This document shows positions 574 to 13,763 of a stretch of 64,000 nt of DNA, piece after piece (position 1 is the first letter of the stretch; each line of letters starts with the position of its first letter). A program made the position numbers and the translations under genes. The stretch is from positions 34,422 to 98,421 of the forward strand of contig JAJFIQ010000021.1 in the NCBI GenBank assembly GCA_021774785.1. Direction: 5' to 3'. The notes beneath the pieces were generated by a model, which searched no databases, was not told the origin of the DNA, and worked only from the letters and a program-made list of their open reading frames with translations. The stretch is from Emcibacter sp. Its GTDB lineage: Bacteria; Pseudomonadota; Alphaproteobacteria; Sphingomonadales; Emcibacteraceae.

Positions 574-873
574 ATGAGCCTAGAAGATATTACTACAGAA
601 ATACGGGATAAAGCCGGATCAATGGAAGCCACTGGAAAAACAGTTAAAATTGACCTGCAGGGTGAGGGCACCATTTATATCGATGGTTCAACAACGCCAC
701 CAACCGTCAGCAATGACGATAATGAAGCAGATGTAACATTGATTATCAGTGAGGAAAATTTTGAAGGCCTGATTGATGGGTCCTTAAACCCACAGATGGC
801 CTTTATGATGGGCAAGCTTAAAATTGACGGTGATATGGGGCTTGCCCTGAAGTTGGGCGATCTTTTTAGTTAA
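574..873 (+). CDS. SCP2 sterol-binding domain protein
   Basis: 99 aa; 'GEGTIYIDGS...ADVTLIISEENFEGLIDGSLNPQMAFMMGKLKIDGDMGLALKLGDLF' is typical of SCP2 domains. Confidence 0.85.
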   Translation: MSLEDITTEIRDKAGSMEATGKTVKIDLQGEGTIYIDGSTTPPTVSNDDNEADVTLIISEENFEGLIDGSLNPQMAFMMGKLKIDGDMGLALKLGDLFS

Positions 874-1382: not shown

Positions 1383-3644
1383 TTAAATATTGTTAACTAT
1401 TAAGGGCCAGCCACGGCCCACACTGTCACTGATTTGCATGATACGGATATCAAGATTTGCTTGTGTTGTGCCAAAATCATCAATCTGAAGATTATCAGCA
1501 TAAGATATTTCAGGGACATCAGAAGTTAGTGTTCGGACAACAGTGGTGCCATTTAATATCTCAACATCATATTTCTCGTAAAGCTCGCCCAAGGGAACGT
1601 CGGCATTGTCCATCCAGTCTCCGCCTACGCGACTACGTCTAATCCATTTCAGGGTGAGTGTTCCGTTACTATCCCGCACTCCTAGTGCATGAACCGGGGC
1701 AAAGGGCCTTAGTATTTTCGCCCTGTAAGTATAATTCATGGGTGAGGCATCCTCGACACGCCCCCCGGATGTTACGGCTTTATATTGGTGGGTTTGGCCA
1801 ATATCCGAGAAATTCATTCCCGCCGACCTTATGGTCGTATGACCAAGAAGAACAAAAGCCTCAGAGGTGCCATGACTACTGACATTTCTTTCCGTCCCCC
1901 GTCGACCCCGAAGCAGTCCACTCAAACGAAAACGGCCATCGATCTCGAGAACCGCCTGTTGAAATTGGATAATTTCGCCGCCAACCCAGGCGATATTGGC
2001 GCCATTAAGTACGGCATCCATGGTTTCTCCGGACAGGTTATGGTCTGGATTATCCAGGCGGACCATTAGTTCATTGGCATGATCCCAATAGGCGGTTGGT
2101 CCATCAGGCAAAATATTTTCCACAACCCCACTCACCACATCAACTGCTGAGAAATCAAGTTGGCTGTATGTTTGATCATTGTCTCTGGAAATGAACAGGC
2201 CAGCCCCGTTCCATTTTCCTTTACCCGCCGCCGCCGACCAGAAAAGTATGGGCGATGATACATTATCCCCCGTTATTGTTGGTATATCGAGTAGAAACAA
2301 CTGACTTACGGCCAAGGGTTCTACTTGTTGTATGGGCACAAGACCACTATCGGCCAAACTATTTCGGTCCAGAGAAGATTTGGAGAATTTTACTGCCAGA
2401 CAACTTAATCCTTGCAAACCTGTTTCTGTTTCTTGAAGCAAAAAATCATGGGCTTCATCTCCCACTGTCAGGGTAACAATATCGCCCGGTATCAGGTCGG
2501 CATATTTATGGGGCAGGGCAAAACTTGCCGTTTCCCGACCAAACCAAGCTAAATCAAGCTGTTGTTCTGAAACCGACTTTGCCTGATTTGAGGAAATTAC
2601 CAAGGGGATGGCACTTTGCCGAACGATGTCGCTGGCCACATTTAACCGTTTGGCGCGCTGATGCCCGGTTTGATAATCTCGGTTTGGATCGATGAAAGAC
2701 AGGCCAATTTCTTTTGGCAGTTCCATATCCTGCGCCCGGGTCAGGGTAATTTTGTCAGAAGTCGTTGATTTTCCCGTGGGTAGAGCAAGATCATCGGTGA
2801 CAATCGTAATATCTGAAATCCTGTCCAAAGTGCGAAAGAGCAGGCTGTTTTCCTGTTCAACTACATCGAAATGATAAATCTGTGCCAGCTCCTCGATTGC
2901 GGACCGAGATTTCATGGGACCTGGCGTCATATAGCCACCTACCATCTGAACCAGATCACTGGCATCATAGGCGCTTATCTGGGAGAGGTCACAAATATCC
3001 GATACAATTGAAGACAGCAATATCTCTCCGCCTGCATCCGCGATGACTTCAAAAGTCAAATTGGGAATCCGGTTGGCATATTCGCCAAGTTCCAAATCTT
3101 CAAAAACCACATAGGCCATAGAACGAAATGCGTTGACATTGCTCTGACCTTCAAGGGCTTCAATCATGGGGTCTGCATTTTGAAAATCTGTTCCCTTATA
3201 AATACTTAGACTCCCGCCGACAGCCATTACCCCTGCGCTATTGCGCAATAACTTTCCATCGGCCCAGATACGTCCCACATCTGAAATTTCACGCCCGGAC
3301 AAGGTGACCGCAAAAGACGCTGAATAGCTAAAGGTAACGGTTGTGACTTTTTGTCCGCCGCCCTTGCCGCCGCTGCCCTCAGTTTTTTCTGCCCTTGTTT
3401 CTTTCAGGCCAGAAGACCAGATCACATTGCCGGGCAGGCGCATGGTGCCATAAACGCGGGATATGGGCTCGCCATAAGCGGAAGTTTGAACGGTAAGATC
3501 TTTCAGTCGTGTACCTTCGATGGTTCGGGATGCCGTCCCTCCGAAAATTGCCTGATCAACGCGGCGCCCGACCAAGCCGCCAATCAGCCCCCCTATGGGA
3601 CCACCAATGGCCGTCCCCACTACGGTAAGTACAACACTCGCCAT
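1383..3644 (-). CDS. GTA/phage tail fibre-hub protein, Phage-tail_3 family (RcGTA gp15-like, short form)
   Basis: Glycine-rich N-terminus MASVVLTVVGTAIGGPIGGLIGGLVGRRVDQAIFGG and RVYGTMRLPGNVIW; follows the NlpC/P60 gene as in RcGTA. Start moved to 3644, overlapping the upstream stop. Confidence 0.82.
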   Translation of the reverse strand: MASVVLTVVGTAIGGPIGGLIGGLVGRRVDQAIFGGTASRTIEGTRLKDLTVQTSAYGEPISRVYGTMRLPGNVIWSSGLKETRAEKTEGSGGKGGGQKVTTVTFSYSASFAVTLSGREISDVGRIWADGKLLRNSAGVMAVGGSLSIYKGTDFQNADPMIEALEGQSNVNAFRSMAYVVFEDLELGEYANRIPNLTFEVIADAGGEILLSSIVSDICDLSQISAYDASDLVQMVGGYMTPGPMKSRSAIEELAQIYHFDVVEQENSLLFRTLDRISDITIVTDDLALPTGKSTTSDKITLTRAQDMELPKEIGLSFIDPNRDYQTGHQRAKRLNVASDIVRQSAIPLVISSNQAKSVSEQQLDLAWFGRETASFALPHKYADLIPGDIVTLTVGDEAHDFLLQETETGLQGLSCLAVKFSKSSLDRNSLADSGLVPIQQVEPLAVSQLFLLDIPTITGDNVSSPILFWSAAAGKGKWNGAGLFISRDNDQTYSQLDFSAVDVVSGVVENILPDGPTAYWDHANELMVRLDNPDHNLSGETMDAVLNGANIAWVGGEIIQFQQAVLEIDGRFRLSGLLRGRRGTERNVSSHGTSEAFVLLGHTTIRSAGMNFSDIGQTHQYKAVTSGGRVEDASPMNYTYRAKILRPFAPVHALGVRDSNGTLTLKWIRRSRVGGDWMDNADVPLGELYEKYDVEILNGTTVVRTLTSDVPEISYADNLQIDDFGTTQANLDIRIMQISDSVGRGWPLIVNNI

Positions 3645-4090
3645 TAAATTGTTCCTTGAATATTGATTGAAAAATCTGGAAATGAATGAACGGAAATAAT
3701 TCTGGAAAGCCATTCTGCGTCAAGACCATGTTCAACAACCCTGCCAAATTTTTCACAGGCATGAATGATGCCTCTGTCAGAAAGGATTGCCGCATGTTCA
3801 AGATATTTTCCCATGCGCAAAATAACCACCTCGCCCGGCTTCATTTCAGATATTGATTTTTCGGCAAAACCGGCTTCTCTGGCAATCCGGGAGATAGCTT
3901 TTTGCCGGGGTATTTTTTTATAATCCACCATGTCAAAGTCGCTTAAACCGAGAGATTTTGACACATAAACAATCAAACCGACACAGTCCATTCCATGTTC
4001 AGGACTTCGCCCTTGATGACGAAAGGGGCTGCCGACGCATCTTCTGGCCTGAAAAAAGATTCTTCTATGATGTAGATCACTTGTGGTCAT
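3644..4090 (-). CDS. NlpC/P60 family cell-wall peptidase (RcGTA gp14-like)
   Basis: 'CVGSPFRHQGRSPEHGMDCVGLIVY' catalytic-Cys region, 'GEVVILRMGKYLEHAAIL' His region. Confidence 0.88.
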   Translation of the reverse strand: MTTSDLHHRRIFFQARRCVGSPFRHQGRSPEHGMDCVGLIVYVSKSLGLSDFDMVDYKKIPRQKAISRIAREAGFAEKSISEMKPGEVVILRMGKYLEHAAILSDRGIIHACEKFGRVVEHGLDAEWLSRIISVHSFPDFSINIQGTI

Positions 4091-4131: not shown

Positions 4132-4836
4132 ATGAAGGATTTGTCTGTCATGGACATGAATGTTATTGGGTTACATATTCACGAATTAAGAAACCAGTGC
4201 CGCTTTATTGAAGCCAGCGTGGACATATTAAATCAATCAATGGAAAACCAGGCCCCCATTGGTATTTTCTTTTCCCTGCAAAATATTATGTTGGGTACAA
4301 ACCAAATTGCCCGCACATTGTGGACACCGCGCAAAAAGGGTAAAGACCGGGCAACGGCCTTGCGGCAGGCGCTTGAGTTGCCAGAAAAATACCCACTGAA
4401 TAATGAAGGCATTCTGTCCCTTGTTGACCATGCCGATGAAACCAATGACCAATGGATCAGCCAATCCAAGGATCAATATATTCTTTATGATTTTATTGGT
4501 GATATTGCTTCAAGTACCCATAAGGACGTTGAAACAAAAAATATTTACCGTGCTTTTGACACAAATACCAAAATATATACCTATATTGGTGTCAGCTTTA
4601 ATCTGGAAGCTCTTCTCAAGGCCATTGGTGATGTGAGCAATCGGGTTAACCAGATACATATTCGCCTTTACCCCGATCAATGGAAAGAAGTTGAAGAAGA
4701 AAAAGTGGAACCTGTAGAAGAAAAAAAAGCCGCACCGAAAAAGACAACACCTAAAAAAACAATCCCGAAAAAGACAGCGGCTAAAAAAACGGCTCCCAAA
4801 AAAACGGCTCCCAAAAAGACGGCGACAAAAAAGTAG
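4132..4836 (+). CDS. Hypothetical protein with Lys/Ala/Pro/Thr-rich (PKKT)n histone-H1-like C-terminal tail, opposite strand within GTA cluster
   Basis: Track ORF 3958-4836; likely start at 4132 (MKDLSVMDMNVIGLHIHEL...), clear of the NlpC/P60 gene; tail KKAAPKKTTPKKTIPKKTAAKKTAPKKTAPKKTATKK. Confidence 0.75.
   Translation: MKDLSVMDMNVIGLHIHELRNQCRFIEASVDILNQSMENQAPIGIFFSLQNIMLGTNQIARTLWTPRKKGKDRATALRQALELPEKYPLNNEGILSLVDHADETNDQWISQSKDQYILYDFIGDIASSTHKDVETKNIYRAFDTNTKIYTYIGVSFNLEALLKAIGDVSNRVNQIHIRLYPDQWKEVEEEKVEPVEEKKAAPKKTTPKKTIPKKTAAKKTAPKKTAPKKTATKK
4720..4836 (+). repeat. In-frame ~15-bp repeats encoding (x-P/A-K-K-T) pentapeptides
   Basis: Repeated units such as aaaaaaacggctccc/aaaaagacagcggct read directly from the sequence. 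Confidence 0.85.
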
Positions 4837-4842
4837 CCACTT

Positions 4843-5685
4843 TTATTTCAGGCCGGGATAGTTATACAGGGAATCCGTTCCCGGTATGGCTGTCTCGCCC
4901 CGGAAATTTTCAAAATTCTGAAATTTGTTTTTGCAGGTAGCAGATCGCTTATCACACCCTGCAACCGCTAAATATATATCACCAACCCCAATGGGTTCCG
5001 GCAATATATCATAAAAGATAAACTGTCCCCCGGAATAGAATTTTACCTCTGATTTTTGGCCCATATTAAGCCCGCTCAACCAACGAACCGAGCCATAATC
5101 AAACCACCCTATAGCCTCAGTTTGACCAGTATCTGTAAAACTTTCTTGGCTGATGACGCCTGTCACCATACCCAGTGTGGAGAATACCTCTAGATTAATA
5201 TGACAGTCTTTCGCGCCTAAGTCTGCCCGACATTCGGGCGAGAAAACATCCCCAATAACCTGCTGTAACTTCTGTGTTAACCCCCTTATTTCAACCATGA
5301 AATTTTGATCCTTCAGGGTAAACTCCCCAAGCCAGCCACTGCGAATATAAATTTTGCCCTGTGTTAAATCTTGCCAGTTTACTTGAAAGATTGAAATAGC
5401 CGCATGGTCAAACAGACCGGCTCTTATATCTTTTTCTGTAAGGCCATCCGATGACAGCAATGCCGACACTTCCAGATTATCCACGTTCAGACTGTTTGTA
5501 CTGCTGACAGAGGAGGGCAGAAAGCCATTGACCGGCCTGAATGTAAGATTCTCAAAATTCAGTTCCCGGTCATGAGTGGTGAAAGCCATCCTGACCCCAT
5601 CTTGTCTGGTAAGTACCCAACAGGTCACCATTGTGGTCAGCTCAGATGACATGTGGGTTTTCAGCTCTGAAGAAAGTAATTTCAT
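4843..5685 (-). CDS. DUF2163 / phage BR0599-family protein (RcGTA gp13-like hub)
   Basis: 'CWVLTRQDGVRMAFTTHDRELNFENLTFRPVNGF' and 'SPECRADLGAKDCHINL'. Confidence 0.88.
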   Translation of the reverse strand: MKLLSSELKTHMSSELTTMVTCWVLTRQDGVRMAFTTHDRELNFENLTFRPVNGFLPSSVSSTNSLNVDNLEVSALLSSDGLTEKDIRAGLFDHAAISIFQVNWQDLTQGKIYIRSGWLGEFTLKDQNFMVEIRGLTQKLQQVIGDVFSPECRADLGAKDCHINLEVFSTLGMVTGVISQESFTDTGQTEAIGWFDYGSVRWLSGLNMGQKSEVKFYSGGQFIFYDILPEPIGVGDIYLAVAGCDKRSATCKNKFQNFENFRGETAIPGTDSLYNYPGLK

Positions 5686-8034
5686 TTAAATGCGAACCTC
5701 AATCAGTGAAATAGATGGGATATGTCCCGCCTGAAAACTTTCCAGTGTGATGGACAGAAAATCCTCGGAAAAACGTACCGGTACATCAAATTCAAATCCG
5801 GCCGTGATTATCGCACCTGCAATAGGTGCCACATCAAATGATACAATCCCGCTGGTCATATCCACCTGCCATCCGGAAACTTGCGTCACATTGTCAAGGG
5901 CAATGGTAACCGTTCCCGAAACGGGCTTGGCGATATTTCGCACATGGATTGTCCCACCGCTATCATATGTTTTGATTAGTTGGAAAGACATCGCCATGCC
6001 ATCCCCGATGGCTATTTGCTGATCGGTGGCCGCAGCATTCTGGTCTGGTATGCTACTTTTAAAGTCCATCCAGTCTTTATAACGGAAACCATTGGCGCGT
6101 CCCGCCCGGGCCCGGAAAAAACTGAGCAGTTCGCTCAGATCATTTTCAGAACGCAAACCCATGCCAATATCATAAATATTGCGGGCCTCCGCCCATTCCC
6201 GATTGCGCTGTTCATGACCGGACGCCATCTCAACCACATTTGTCAGAAACTGAGGCCCGCCGCTAGCACCATAGCTAATATCTTGTGCCAAACGCACTTC
6301 GTGAAATCCTGTCATAATATTTTCCAGATATTTAGTATAAATAACCCCGTCCCGAACGATTTGAGGATAAGCCCAGATAAAAATCTGATTGAACCCCCCC
6401 TGAAATCCCAGCCCCGTAGCCTTGATTATATTTTTCCAATTTTCCAATGTAGTTGGCAGAAGATTAAATCCGGCAAAATAGTGGGTCTTCGTACGGGGGT
6501 AAGCTAAATTCAGATCAATATTTGCAATGGCATTTGTTCGTTTGCCCCATTCCCCATTTAAGATAAAGTCATAATCCTCGATTTGAAGAAAATCAAAGGC
6601 TGGGTCCTGCCAATGGCTTGTAGGGAAATTAACATCACCGGCCAATGGGGCGTCATCCAACAACACTTGCGGGCTAAAAAATAACAGGCCGATCTGAGCT
6701 GTCTCATTGGAAACTTTAATCTGATCCCTGAGCCACAAAGTGGATTGCCCCAACTTATCACCCAACCAATTCAGATAATCCTGCTGTTCCGCTGTCGGCG
6801 TCTCTGTGGCAAGGATATGTTTAGCGGGTACAGGTTTGGTCGTTTCCGAGGTGTAAAGTGCTGTCGTGACGTCATCATAAAAATGGGGAACACCGGTGCC
6901 TGACTGATTAATCCACCACCAGGGCTCGCCAATCTGATAAAAGTGACTTGCTCCCACCTGATCTATAATTTGCCCAAAAGACAGATAGACATCCCGCAGG
7001 TAATCCAATGCCGTCTGGTTGGTTGGTGCGACCAGACTTGATGGTGGCACCCAGCCAGTGAGGGCAGGGGAGCCGTCATGAGCCTTTTGCTGCCAGCTAG
7101 CGGGTATATTCTGTGCCAATATTTCATAAGAAAGGGAGAAGATGACTTTAAACCCAAAAAACTGTGCATGTTCTAGAAAATTTATGTGCCAGCTTGCGGC
7201 TGCCTTGTTCAGTTTCGCCTTTGTGGTGTCGATGATATAACGCCCTTCATCCGCATTCCAGCTCAGGCTATAATAATGGCTCATGCCTATATAATGGGTG
7301 ATCCATTCCCCATAACCAAGCCGCAACATGTTCCAAATCACCCGTTCCGGGGCCAGCGTGGTCACATCGTCATAACCATTGGCGATACGCAGATCATGTG
7401 GCTGAACATAACCGTCTCCCACAGTTAGGGTCGATGTGGGGCCAGTGACCTTAATTTCAGAAACGGTAACTTGTGCCTCAACCGCACTGGGTAGGGGGCC
7501 GGTCATTACGCCGTCAAATACCTGCGGTACCATACTAATAAACATGCGGTCAATATCGCCAGGATAAACCGGATCGGCTTCAGACGGATGTAAAAATCCC
7601 CCTGCAAGATTATCAAAATCAAGGGTGATCACAGCATCTTCTGCTGTACCCACCGAATAATTCCATAACCGCACGAACCAAGTGCGGGCGGTTCCATTCT
7701 GATCCCGCCCTTCTATGGTCAATGTTGGACTATTCAGCACATCCAATGTCATGATATTGGTGCTTTGCCAACGGAATCTTAACACCGTATGTGCGTAATC
7801 GCGTCTGGTTTCATAACGGTGAAATGGGTGATCAATTGTATCCTCAGAGTCCCATATCAGTCCGCATAAATCCTCAAAACGATAAAAGACCAGATCAACA
7901 ACAAGACTGTCATAATTGGTTGTAATTGTGGATGCCATCATGGGGCGAGGGAAATTTATCGTCCAGTAGCGGGGGGAAAATCGGCGGATAAAGCTAGTAT
8001 CTGTTTGATCATCCGATGTTGCCAGCCAATACAT
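5686..8034 (-). CDS. Large GTA distal-tail protein: ~570-aa N-terminal region joined to a C-terminal DUF2460 (RcGTA gp12-like) domain
   Basis: C-terminus 'GGPQFLTNVVEMASGHEQRNREWAEARNIYDIGMGLRSENDLSELLSFFRARAGRANGFRYKDWMDFKS' = DUF2460; N-terminus contains long TIM-barrel-like stretches. Confidence 0.82.
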   Translation of the reverse strand: MYWLATSDDQTDTSFIRRFSPRYWTINFPRPMMASTITTNYDSLVVDLVFYRFEDLCGLIWDSEDTIDHPFHRYETRRDYAHTVLRFRWQSTNIMTLDVLNSPTLTIEGRDQNGTARTWFVRLWNYSVGTAEDAVITLDFDNLAGGFLHPSEADPVYPGDIDRMFISMVPQVFDGVMTGPLPSAVEAQVTVSEIKVTGPTSTLTVGDGYVQPHDLRIANGYDDVTTLAPERVIWNMLRLGYGEWITHYIGMSHYYSLSWNADEGRYIIDTTKAKLNKAAASWHINFLEHAQFFGFKVIFSLSYEILAQNIPASWQQKAHDGSPALTGWVPPSSLVAPTNQTALDYLRDVYLSFGQIIDQVGASHFYQIGEPWWWINQSGTGVPHFYDDVTTALYTSETTKPVPAKHILATETPTAEQQDYLNWLGDKLGQSTLWLRDQIKVSNETAQIGLLFFSPQVLLDDAPLAGDVNFPTSHWQDPAFDFLQIEDYDFILNGEWGKRTNAIANIDLNLAYPRTKTHYFAGFNLLPTTLENWKNIIKATGLGFQGGFNQIFIWAYPQIVRDGVIYTKYLENIMTGFHEVRLAQDISYGASGGPQFLTNVVEMASGHEQRNREWAEARNIYDIGMGLRSENDLSELLSFFRARAGRANGFRYKDWMDFKSSIPDQNAAATDQQIAIGDGMAMSFQLIKTYDSGGTIHVRNIAKPVSGTVTIALDNVTQVSGWQVDMTSGIVSFDVAPIAGAIITAGFEFDVPVRFSEDFLSITLESFQAGHIPSISLIEVRI

Positions 8035-8668: not shown

Positions 8669-8962
8669 TTATCGCATTATATTGCTCATATTCATGAAGG
8701 AGATCGCGGCGCGTCCAATCAGGAACATACCTGAATAGATCATTACATTGACCCAGTTCATGTGACCGTAACCATTGCTAATATACTGAGCCAGTAATAC
8801 CATGAGCATGACTAGGCCAATGCCCTGAAACAGGTTGGCGAATAATCTTACCCCTTTTAATATACGGTCACGCTTGGGGTCGGATTTTTCCTTGATGCCG
8901 GCCTTTCGGTCGGCAACCCGGTCGCGCAGGGATTTTCTGGAGTTTGGTTCTTTTTTTCTCAT
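8669..8962 (-). CDS. Small basic two-TM membrane protein within GTA cluster
   Basis: 97 aa; charged N-terminus MRKKEPNSRKSLRDRVADRK then two hydrophobic segments. Confidence 0.65.
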   Translation of the reverse strand: MRKKEPNSRKSLRDRVADRKAGIKEKSDPKRDRILKGVRLFANLFQGIGLVMLMVLLAQYISNGYGHMNWVNVMIYSGMFLIGRAAISFMNMSNIMR

Positions 8963-12176: not shown

Positions 12177-13763
12177 TTAAATCCTTAATGTTCGATTGTT
12201 GGTTGGTCGTATTGTTCTGTCGTCTGCTTCTGTCGAAGATGCCTGGTTTGCCCGGGCTACCTTATGAGTTCTGTTGGGGTGTGGTGAGAAGGCCGTAGGG
12301 TCAAATAGTCCTGCTACATCACTGCTTAAGCCATGGGTTGCATTCTGGCTGACTAAAGCCTGAAGCTGCGCAAGGATGACCCCATCACTTTTTATTGCGT
12401 GCCTGTTGCCCCCCATGGTTAAGGTCTGCACTTGAGACAGTATCAAGCTGTCGCCACTTACATTATGCTGACTATTGGAATTGGCGATGGTCTGTATTTG
12501 TGACATTATTAAACTGTTGGCAGCATGTAACTGTAGTCCGTTGGAAACGGTAATATTTTGGACCTGCGACAAGTTAACCATTTGAGAAGATACGGCGTGC
12601 TTCATATATTGAATACTGACCGATACGCCAAGCCCTGAAACTACGTTGCCGCTTGTGAAGTTATGGGTTGTTTTCATGGCGTTCAGGGTATGAATTTGCG
12701 AAGGTATGATATTGTCAGAGATTAATCCGCTAGACGCTCGTTGGATAGTGAGCGCCACGCCAACGACATCTATCGCTTCAGGGATTCCTGCAGTAGCAAA
12801 TGTTGCGGGGCTGTTTTGGTTATTATATTCAGTTAGTAGCCAGCCTGCTGATCGGGGCAAGAGTGTTATTGCCACGAAGAAAATATCGGCTTCTAGGAAT
12901 CTTATGGTCGGAGCAGCAGCATGAGATGCAATAGTAAAATTAACTTTATCTACCAGATTACCTGTTTTCGCCGCAGACGCCACACTAATACCATCAACAA
13001 ACGCCGCAAAGGTGGCGCCATCATATACTGTCGATAACCAATAATCCGTATTTGCAATTAAAGCACCGAAAGATATACCTGTCCAGCTACCTGTCGTCAG
13101 CCATGTTTTCGGGTTATCACCACCGTTGACATTCCAATCAAGACTAGGACTATTACCATTAATTGGCCCGGATCCCGAGTCCGTTGGTAAATTTGGCGCA
13201 CGCATGACGGCACTTAGTGTAAAGTCCTGTGTTATTCCATTCCAGCCCAGATCAGCCCTCTGGCTTGTGCCATTAAATCGCGTCCCCCCGCCCATGACGC
13301 CACTTACTGTGGTTGGGGAGCCAATAAGGACCAGATCACCATTACCCGAAGAATCAACAGCGCTACCCATATGAAAAACACGTTCATAATCCGACCATAC
13401 CGCATTACGTCCGAAGGCTTCGGTTGCAGCAGGTTGAATTTCACCAGATTTTTTATACCAGACCCAAATGTCTTTGGCGGTACCGGTATTTAAAGTGGGA
13501 ATTTTAACCCATAATTCTACATCAGGCGTATTACCTGTGACGAAAGTCACAACCTCTAAATCAAGTCGGGTCGCTCCAGCACTATCTTCAGAGAAACGCA
13601 CATCGCCGCCGCCATAGAGGGCTGCGCTAGATCCTCCGTCCAGCATTTCCGCAGGCAAATTATATTTGGTGATAAGAACAGAGAAATTATTATTATTCCC
13701 TGATATCTGAGCATCAGGGATGGTGATCTTAGTTTTTCGCGCCCATCCGGTAGGAAATGCCAT
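12177..13763 (-). CDS. DUF2341/LamG-like putative adhesin or fibre protein with 22-aa repeats
   Basis: N-term 'GWARKTKITIPDAQISGNNNNFSVLITKYNLP...DVRFSEDSAGATRLDLEVVTF' (DUF2341-like); middle concanavalin/LamG-like; C-term repeats. Confidence 0.75.
   Translation of the reverse strand: MAFPTGWARKTKITIPDAQISGNNNNFSVLITKYNLPAEMLDGGSSAALYGGGDVRFSEDSAGATRLDLEVVTFVTGNTPDVELWVKIPTLNTGTAKDIWVWYKKSGEIQPAATEAFGRNAVWSDYERVFHMGSAVDSSGNGDLVLIGSPTTVSGVMGGGTRFNGTSQRADLGWNGITQDFTLSAVMRAPNLPTDSGSGPINGNSPSLDWNVNGGDNPKTWLTTGSWTGISFGALIANTDYWLSTVYDGATFAAFVDGISVASAAKTGNLVDKVNFTIASHAAAPTIRFLEADIFFVAITLLPRSAGWLLTEYNNQNSPATFATAGIPEAIDVVGVALTIQRASSGLISDNIIPSQIHTLNAMKTTHNFTSGNVVSGLGVSVSIQYMKHAVSSQMVNLSQVQNITVSNGLQLHAANSLIMSQIQTIANSNSQHNVSGDSLILSQVQTLTMGGNRHAIKSDGVILAQLQALVSQNATHGLSSDVAGLFDPTAFSPHPNRTHKVARANQASSTEADDRTIRPTNNRTLRI
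12336..12731 (-). repeat. Six tandem 22-residue protein repeats (aa 345-476)
   Basis: SGLISDNIIPSQIHTLNAMKTT / HNFTSGNVVSGLGVSVSIQYMK / HAVSSQMVNLSQVQNITVSNGL / QLHAANSLIMSQIQTIANSNSQ / HNVSGDSLILSQVQTLTMGGNR / HAIKSDGVILAQLQALVSQNAT. Confidence 0.9.

Follow-up and report, generated by a model that had tools for sequence, protein, structure and literature searches.

A probable host gene, retained where the gene transfer agent has been lost, in the tail module of an RcGTA-type cluster of Emcibacter

We analysed a stretch of 64,000 nucleotides from Emcibacter sp. (hereafter, the window), in which a plus-strand gene, here called gene X, lies within the tail module of an RcGTA-type gene transfer agent (GTA) cluster. 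X was found to be vertically inherited, under strong purifying selection, and retained in relatives without the GTA; its domain is homologous to a scattered family whose R[ND]xxxH motif has lost the Arg in most X orthologues. These results indicate that X is very probably a host gene with a role independent of the GTA. The complete explanation, in which a host gene lodged in the ancestral tail module was domesticated and binds nucleic acid without cleaving it, is considered rather probable, and binding of nucleic acid (or another polyanion) as the activity itself is given an even chance. The features used in the analysis are as follows.

574-873, plus strand: SCP2 gene (PF02036), which by synteny adjoins X on the chromosome of relatives without the GTA
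1383-3713, minus strand: C-terminal part of the GTA megatron (Rcc01698_C; Pfam/NCBIfam)
3644-4090, minus strand: GTA NlpC/P60 peptidase gene (PF00877, TIGR02219), diverging from X
4135-4139, plus strand: Shine-Dalgarno sequence AAGGA, 10 nt 5' of the ATG at 4150, largely conserved in congeners
4150-4836, plus strand: gene X, 228 aa, a conserved reading frame with a conserved MD start and Shine-Dalgarno sequence
4150-4698, plus strand: globular domain of X, about 183 aa, rich in helices and including a beta-hairpin region, in no curated family
4723-4833, plus strand: Lys-rich pentapeptide array (PKKT type) of histone-H1-like composition, optional in the family
4843-5685, minus strand: GTA baseplate hub gene (DUF2163/TIGR02218; Phage_phiJL001_Gp84_N), TIGR02218 E 1.4e-68, convergent with X
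5686-8034, minus strand: DUF2460 fusion protein, 782 aa (Pfam/NCBIfam)
8669-8962, minus strand: small predicted membrane protein encoded in the tail module; it, too, remains next to X in relatives that have lost the GTA

Position and start of gene X

The original prediction described a gene of about 234 aa at 4132-4836 on the plus strand, opposite to the flanking DUF2163 and NlpC/P60 genes. These coordinates were confirmed: the stop of the frame is 6 bp from that of the convergent hub gene (4843), and 41 bp separate the start at 4132 from that of the NlpC gene (4090). Pfam and NCBIfam also confirmed both minus-strand neighbours. The reading frame was real, but its length and start had to be corrected. 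The true start is most likely the ATG at 4150 (MDMN...), giving 228 aa rather than 234, because the AAGGA sequence is largely kept in congeners, several congeners have no ATG at the position equivalent to 4132, and the orthologous proteins begin with a conserved MD, or rarely ME. From this start, X and the NlpC gene diverge with 59 bp between them. X is not a chance reading frame, since an orthologue is present in 52 of 61 relatives and dN/dS is approximately 0.065.

Beyond the DUF2460 gene, the cluster continues with genes for the tape measure, tail tube, capsid, portal, TerL, and TerS. Of the GTA megatron model, the protein encoded at 1383-3713 matched the C-terminal half and nothing else. 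The distal tail protein (DUF2460) is a fusion that also contains a TIM barrel and a non-contractile tail sheath N-terminal domain. For the 528-aa product of the gene adjoining the capsid gene (12177-13763, minus strand), the matches were limited to weak ones of the concanavalin-like and DUF2341 types. Between the tape-measure and tail genes lies the gene for the small membrane protein of 8669-8962, which has 97 aa and a basic N-terminus.

Distribution, inheritance, and selection

Sixty-one genomes of relatives were classified by the hub family TIGR02218, TerL, and gene-order maps. In the following, f1 to f8 are family labels of the genomes searched, and f5 is called Kordiimonas-like since its gene order fits that of named Kordiimonas records. 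In the 52 relatives that carry it (Emcibacter-, Kordiimonas-, and Eilatimonas-like bacteria), X was a single-copy gene. It was adjacent to the hub gene on the opposite strand in 29 genomes and present without a TIGR02218 hub in 22, whereas four genomes (f3 and f6) had the hub without X and five had neither, two of these being less than 65% complete. In the remaining genome, G019, X was present and hub matches were located only elsewhere in the chromosome, where two 557-codon frames contained two partial hub matches each; TerL was absent. In wider sampling, 80 of 251 genomes of the order matched X, including two (f6) as distant relatives only, and the sole match among 289 genomes of the class was the window's own genome. 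Named carriers include Emcibacter, Emcibacteraceae MAGs, Kordiimonas, and Eilatimonas. No X orthologue was found in the f6 genomes, many of which are complete; the distant relative carried by two of them lies elsewhere, and of the GTA and neighbour genes searched for, none was present in its 16-kb surroundings.

By the original prediction's own account, homologues located mainly outside GTA loci would speak against it. Among the 52 X-bearing relatives, 22 had no hub, and X was located outside GTA loci in f5 and f1/g5. In f1/g5, the gene order was gloB-SCP2-X, followed by the homologue of the 8669-8962 gene; the surrounding GTA genes were gone, and TerL was also missing from all genomes except G021, which retains the GTA. 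In f5, the order was SCP2-M-X-acyl-CoA dehydrogenase, and a TerS-TerL-portal-protease cluster lay far from X. Likewise, in L077, L078, and L079 (Kordiimonas-like), a TerS-TerL-portal-protease(-capsid) cluster was located away from X, and no RcGTA-type hub was found genome-wide. In f2, GTA genes are still present around X: the head genes remain nearby, but a hub and tail of the RcGTA type are missing. The f2 locus L026 (10337-14862, minus strand) keeps GTA-like head genes together with a different tail protein (Phage-tail_3 and Peptidase_S74), which suggests that its tail module was swapped.

The reverse situation was observed in the GTA-bearing f3 and f6, where 27-60 bp separate the hub match from the NlpC match, and nothing lies in between. 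Because X is kept without the hub, and because the f3 and f6 GTAs have the hub and NlpC genes side by side without it, X is considered a host gene rather than a GTA component. These results, together with the vertical inheritance described below, bear out the third reading of the original prediction, a host gene captured by insertion. It should be noted that wherever the hub adjoins X (29 of 29 genomes), X has the same position in the GTA, and a GTA-linked role would likewise account for this constancy.

Selection and inheritance were compared among the neighbouring genes. In the GTA-bearing genus, the median dN/dS of the X domain (0.065) was lower than that of the hub (0.11) and NlpC (0.17) genes, and the value for X in f5 was 0.095; because they were estimated by a simple pairwise method and synonymous divergence is high, these values are to be read as a ranking. 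In f1/g5, where synonymous sites are saturated, pN/pS of X was 0.22, close to that of SCP2 (0.24). X is under strong purifying selection. Furthermore, pairwise identities of X correlated with those of the hub (Spearman 0.91, with 0 of 999 permutations as high) and of SCP2 (0.73), as expected for vertical descent.

The simplest history would be one insertion of X followed by at least two losses of the tail module that spared it. A member of the scattered family described below may have inserted between the hub and NlpC genes of the ancestral tail module, in an Emcibacter/Kordiimonas-like ancestor after the split from the GTA-bearing f3 and f6; both the single insertion and its timing are read from the distribution pattern rather than from a rooted species tree. 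X would then have been domesticated and passed on vertically, surviving where the surrounding tail module was deleted. Lineage-specific host genes can thus reside in an RcGTA-type cluster and persist after the GTA is lost, and location in such a cluster is not to be taken as proof that a gene belongs to the GTA. In the literature searched, which was mostly outside subscription journals, we found no report that connects Kordiimonas with a GTA, and none of a HEPN-type gene within a GTA cluster, although such an absence is unproven.

The globular domain and its distant relatives

The structure of X predicted by AF2 from 25 aligned sequences had a pLDDT of 93.6 and a pTM of 0.87. The original prediction had stated that the N-terminal domain matches no recognised family. 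This was correct for Pfam, NCBIfam, PHROGs, and PADLOC, in which neither X nor its orthologues had a meaningful match, but distant unannotated relatives do exist. Sequence searches of the PDB with X gave nothing, the Rab11 matches at E 0.1-1 being noise, and Foldseek found no PDB match to its fold at E<=0.001. When the fold was compared with a viral library, one significant match was obtained, gp37 of Gordonia phage Madeline (E 3e-4, TM 0.65). A tblastn search with X found no phage sequence; Rubrobacter and Thiodictyon plasmid proteins were matched, and the Thiodictyon protein in turn matched Madeline gp37 (E 2e-3) as well as Alteromonas, Tritonibacter, and Enterobacter plasmid proteins. Indeed, a profile of the distant relatives built without X matched X at E 5.6e-17; among 299 genomes, just one other was matched. 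The X domain is homologous, by family profile and predicted fold, to a rare, scattered, and unannotated family on plasmids and phages. Members of this family are sporadic and have no Lys-rich tail, whereas X is passed on vertically and is close to fixation in its lineages.

The two groups also differ at a conserved motif. R[ND]xxxH followed by D-E was intact in all nine aligned distant relatives. At the aligned positions, the Arg was kept in 4 and the His in 25 of 55 X orthologues, and the D-E was retained; the X of the window has Leu and His. A different Arg, six residues N-terminal to the His, is present in some orthologues but not in the X of the window. A conserved HE-x-RNQ near the N-terminus is specific to X. 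The X domain defines an unannotated family of phages and plasmids, characterized by R[ND]xxxH, that appears to have been domesticated in one bacterial lineage with loss of this signature.

HEPN RNases have an Rx4-6H motif, the second residue of which is mostly N, D, or H (PMC3710099), and the motif of the distant relatives as well as the helix-rich domain are reminiscent of this superfamily. The HEPN fold has four helices in an up-down arrangement; when the fold of a distant relative was compared with the PDB, HEPN chains recurred among the weak matches (7 of 45, E 5-9). In contrast to HEPN proteins, X has a beta-strand region between its helices, gave no significant fold match, and showed no MNT partner; the Arg of the Rx4-6H motif that marks the superfamily is gone from all but the four X orthologues mentioned above, and about half have lost the His. 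Hence, membership of X in the HEPN superfamily is unproven and is offered as a lead, not as a classification. HEPN versions without the conserved catalytic or polar residues have been proposed to be nucleic-acid-binding (PMC3710099). On these sequence features, X is most likely a domesticated, non-catalytic nucleic-acid-binding protein whose domain would bind nucleic acid without cleaving it. Its biochemical role is unproven, and a role related to nucleic acid is probable.

The lysine-rich tail and alternative roles

The C-terminal end of X is VEEKKAAPKKTTPKKTIPKKTAAKKTAPKKTAPKKTATKK. The Lys-rich (PKKT)n array of the original prediction was evident both in this sequence and in DNA tandem repeats with periods of 15, 30, and 45 bp spanning 4723-4833. 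The Lys/Ala/Pro-rich repetitive composition is of the HC2 or AlgP/PhaF type. Two database matches were attributable to this low-complexity tail only and were rejected, namely HC2 (PF07382; 15.8 bits against a cut-off of 40) and a valine-tRNA ligase in NCBIfam. A strongly basic, KK-rich tail was found in 35 of 55 distinct orthologues; in the other 20, it was missing, short, or not strongly basic. Since these 20 do without it, DNA binding through the tail cannot be the core function. Nor does the tail follow the GTA: it is absent in the GTA-bearing f4 (and also in L017, L023, L039, and L042) and lost in part of f7, and it is present and long in many f5 genomes whose X does not lie in a GTA.

AlgP and PhaF of Pseudomonas, whose H1-like tails have been reported to bind DNA and affect granule positioning (PMC9239181), share with X the architecture of a globular helical N-terminal domain and a K/A/P-rich repetitive tail. 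By analogy, X could be a granule- or nucleoid-tethering protein, the domain binding a cargo and the tail binding the chromosome or polyphosphate, and the lipid-related neighbours in GTA-less loci, SCP2 and acyl-CoA dehydrogenase, would fit such a role. We regard this as unlikely, since there is no Pfam phasin match, no sign of a related N-terminal domain, and no conservation of the tail in the X family. In the preferred explanation, a domesticated nucleic-acid-binding host protein, the optional tail may add electrostatic affinity for DNA, RNA, or polyphosphate, much as the AlgP/PhaF tails do when attached to unrelated N-terminal domains.

Regulation of the GTA by X, through the protein or through antisense coupling of late transcription to X, with a second role keeping X after GTA loss, is distinctly unlikely. 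Its basis is the gene layout, that is, divergence from NlpC over 59 bp and convergence with the hub over 6 bp. In GTA-bearing loci, the 3' end of X runs into the hub gene with no obvious dedicated terminator, whereas a strong hairpin with a T-run follows X at several f1/g5 loci that have no GTA. In the window, promoter and terminator scans around X were at chance level. As X in GTA-bearing lineages is antisense within the late operon, with no obvious terminator between it and the hub gene, GTA read-through would give RNA antisense to it; this is a consequence of the layout and does not indicate a function. Such a layout is moreover the automatic outcome of an old insertion, and the GTA-bearing sister families manage without X. 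The regulator put forward by the original prediction is further disfavoured by the 22 hub-less X-bearers, by the additional loss of TerL in f1/g5, and by the GTA-bearing lineages without the tail.

The same three observations count against the packaged DNA-condensing protein of the original prediction, which is unlikely. In its wider form, X would be an accessory component of the GTA, either such a condenser or a part of the tail tip, left as a relic in some lineages after GTA loss. The constant tail-module slot in 29 relatives of several families and the Lys-rich tail within a DNA-transfer cluster speak for this possibility. It is nonetheless very improbable, because X is on the strand opposite to the GTA genes, is kept under selection in hub-less lineages including Kordiimonas-like genomes, and is absent both from the GTA-bearing f3 and f6 and from the other alphaproteobacterial genomes sampled (the one match among 289 being the window's own), and because the tail itself was lost in f4 and part of f7.

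Only a slight chance is given to a further scenario, in which X and the 8669-8962 membrane protein are host genes parked in the GTA late operon, GTA activation silences X by antisense read-through in the producing subpopulation and so couples a host nucleic-acid-binding protein to the on/off decision of the GTA, and both genes are kept on GTA loss, X gaining its own terminator. The homologue of the 8669-8962 gene does stay beside X in GTA-lost f1/g5 genomes and at one f2 locus, and it is possibly a second non-GTA passenger of the cluster. X and this small neighbour mark the former site of the tail module and provide a simple marker for reconstructing GTA loss.
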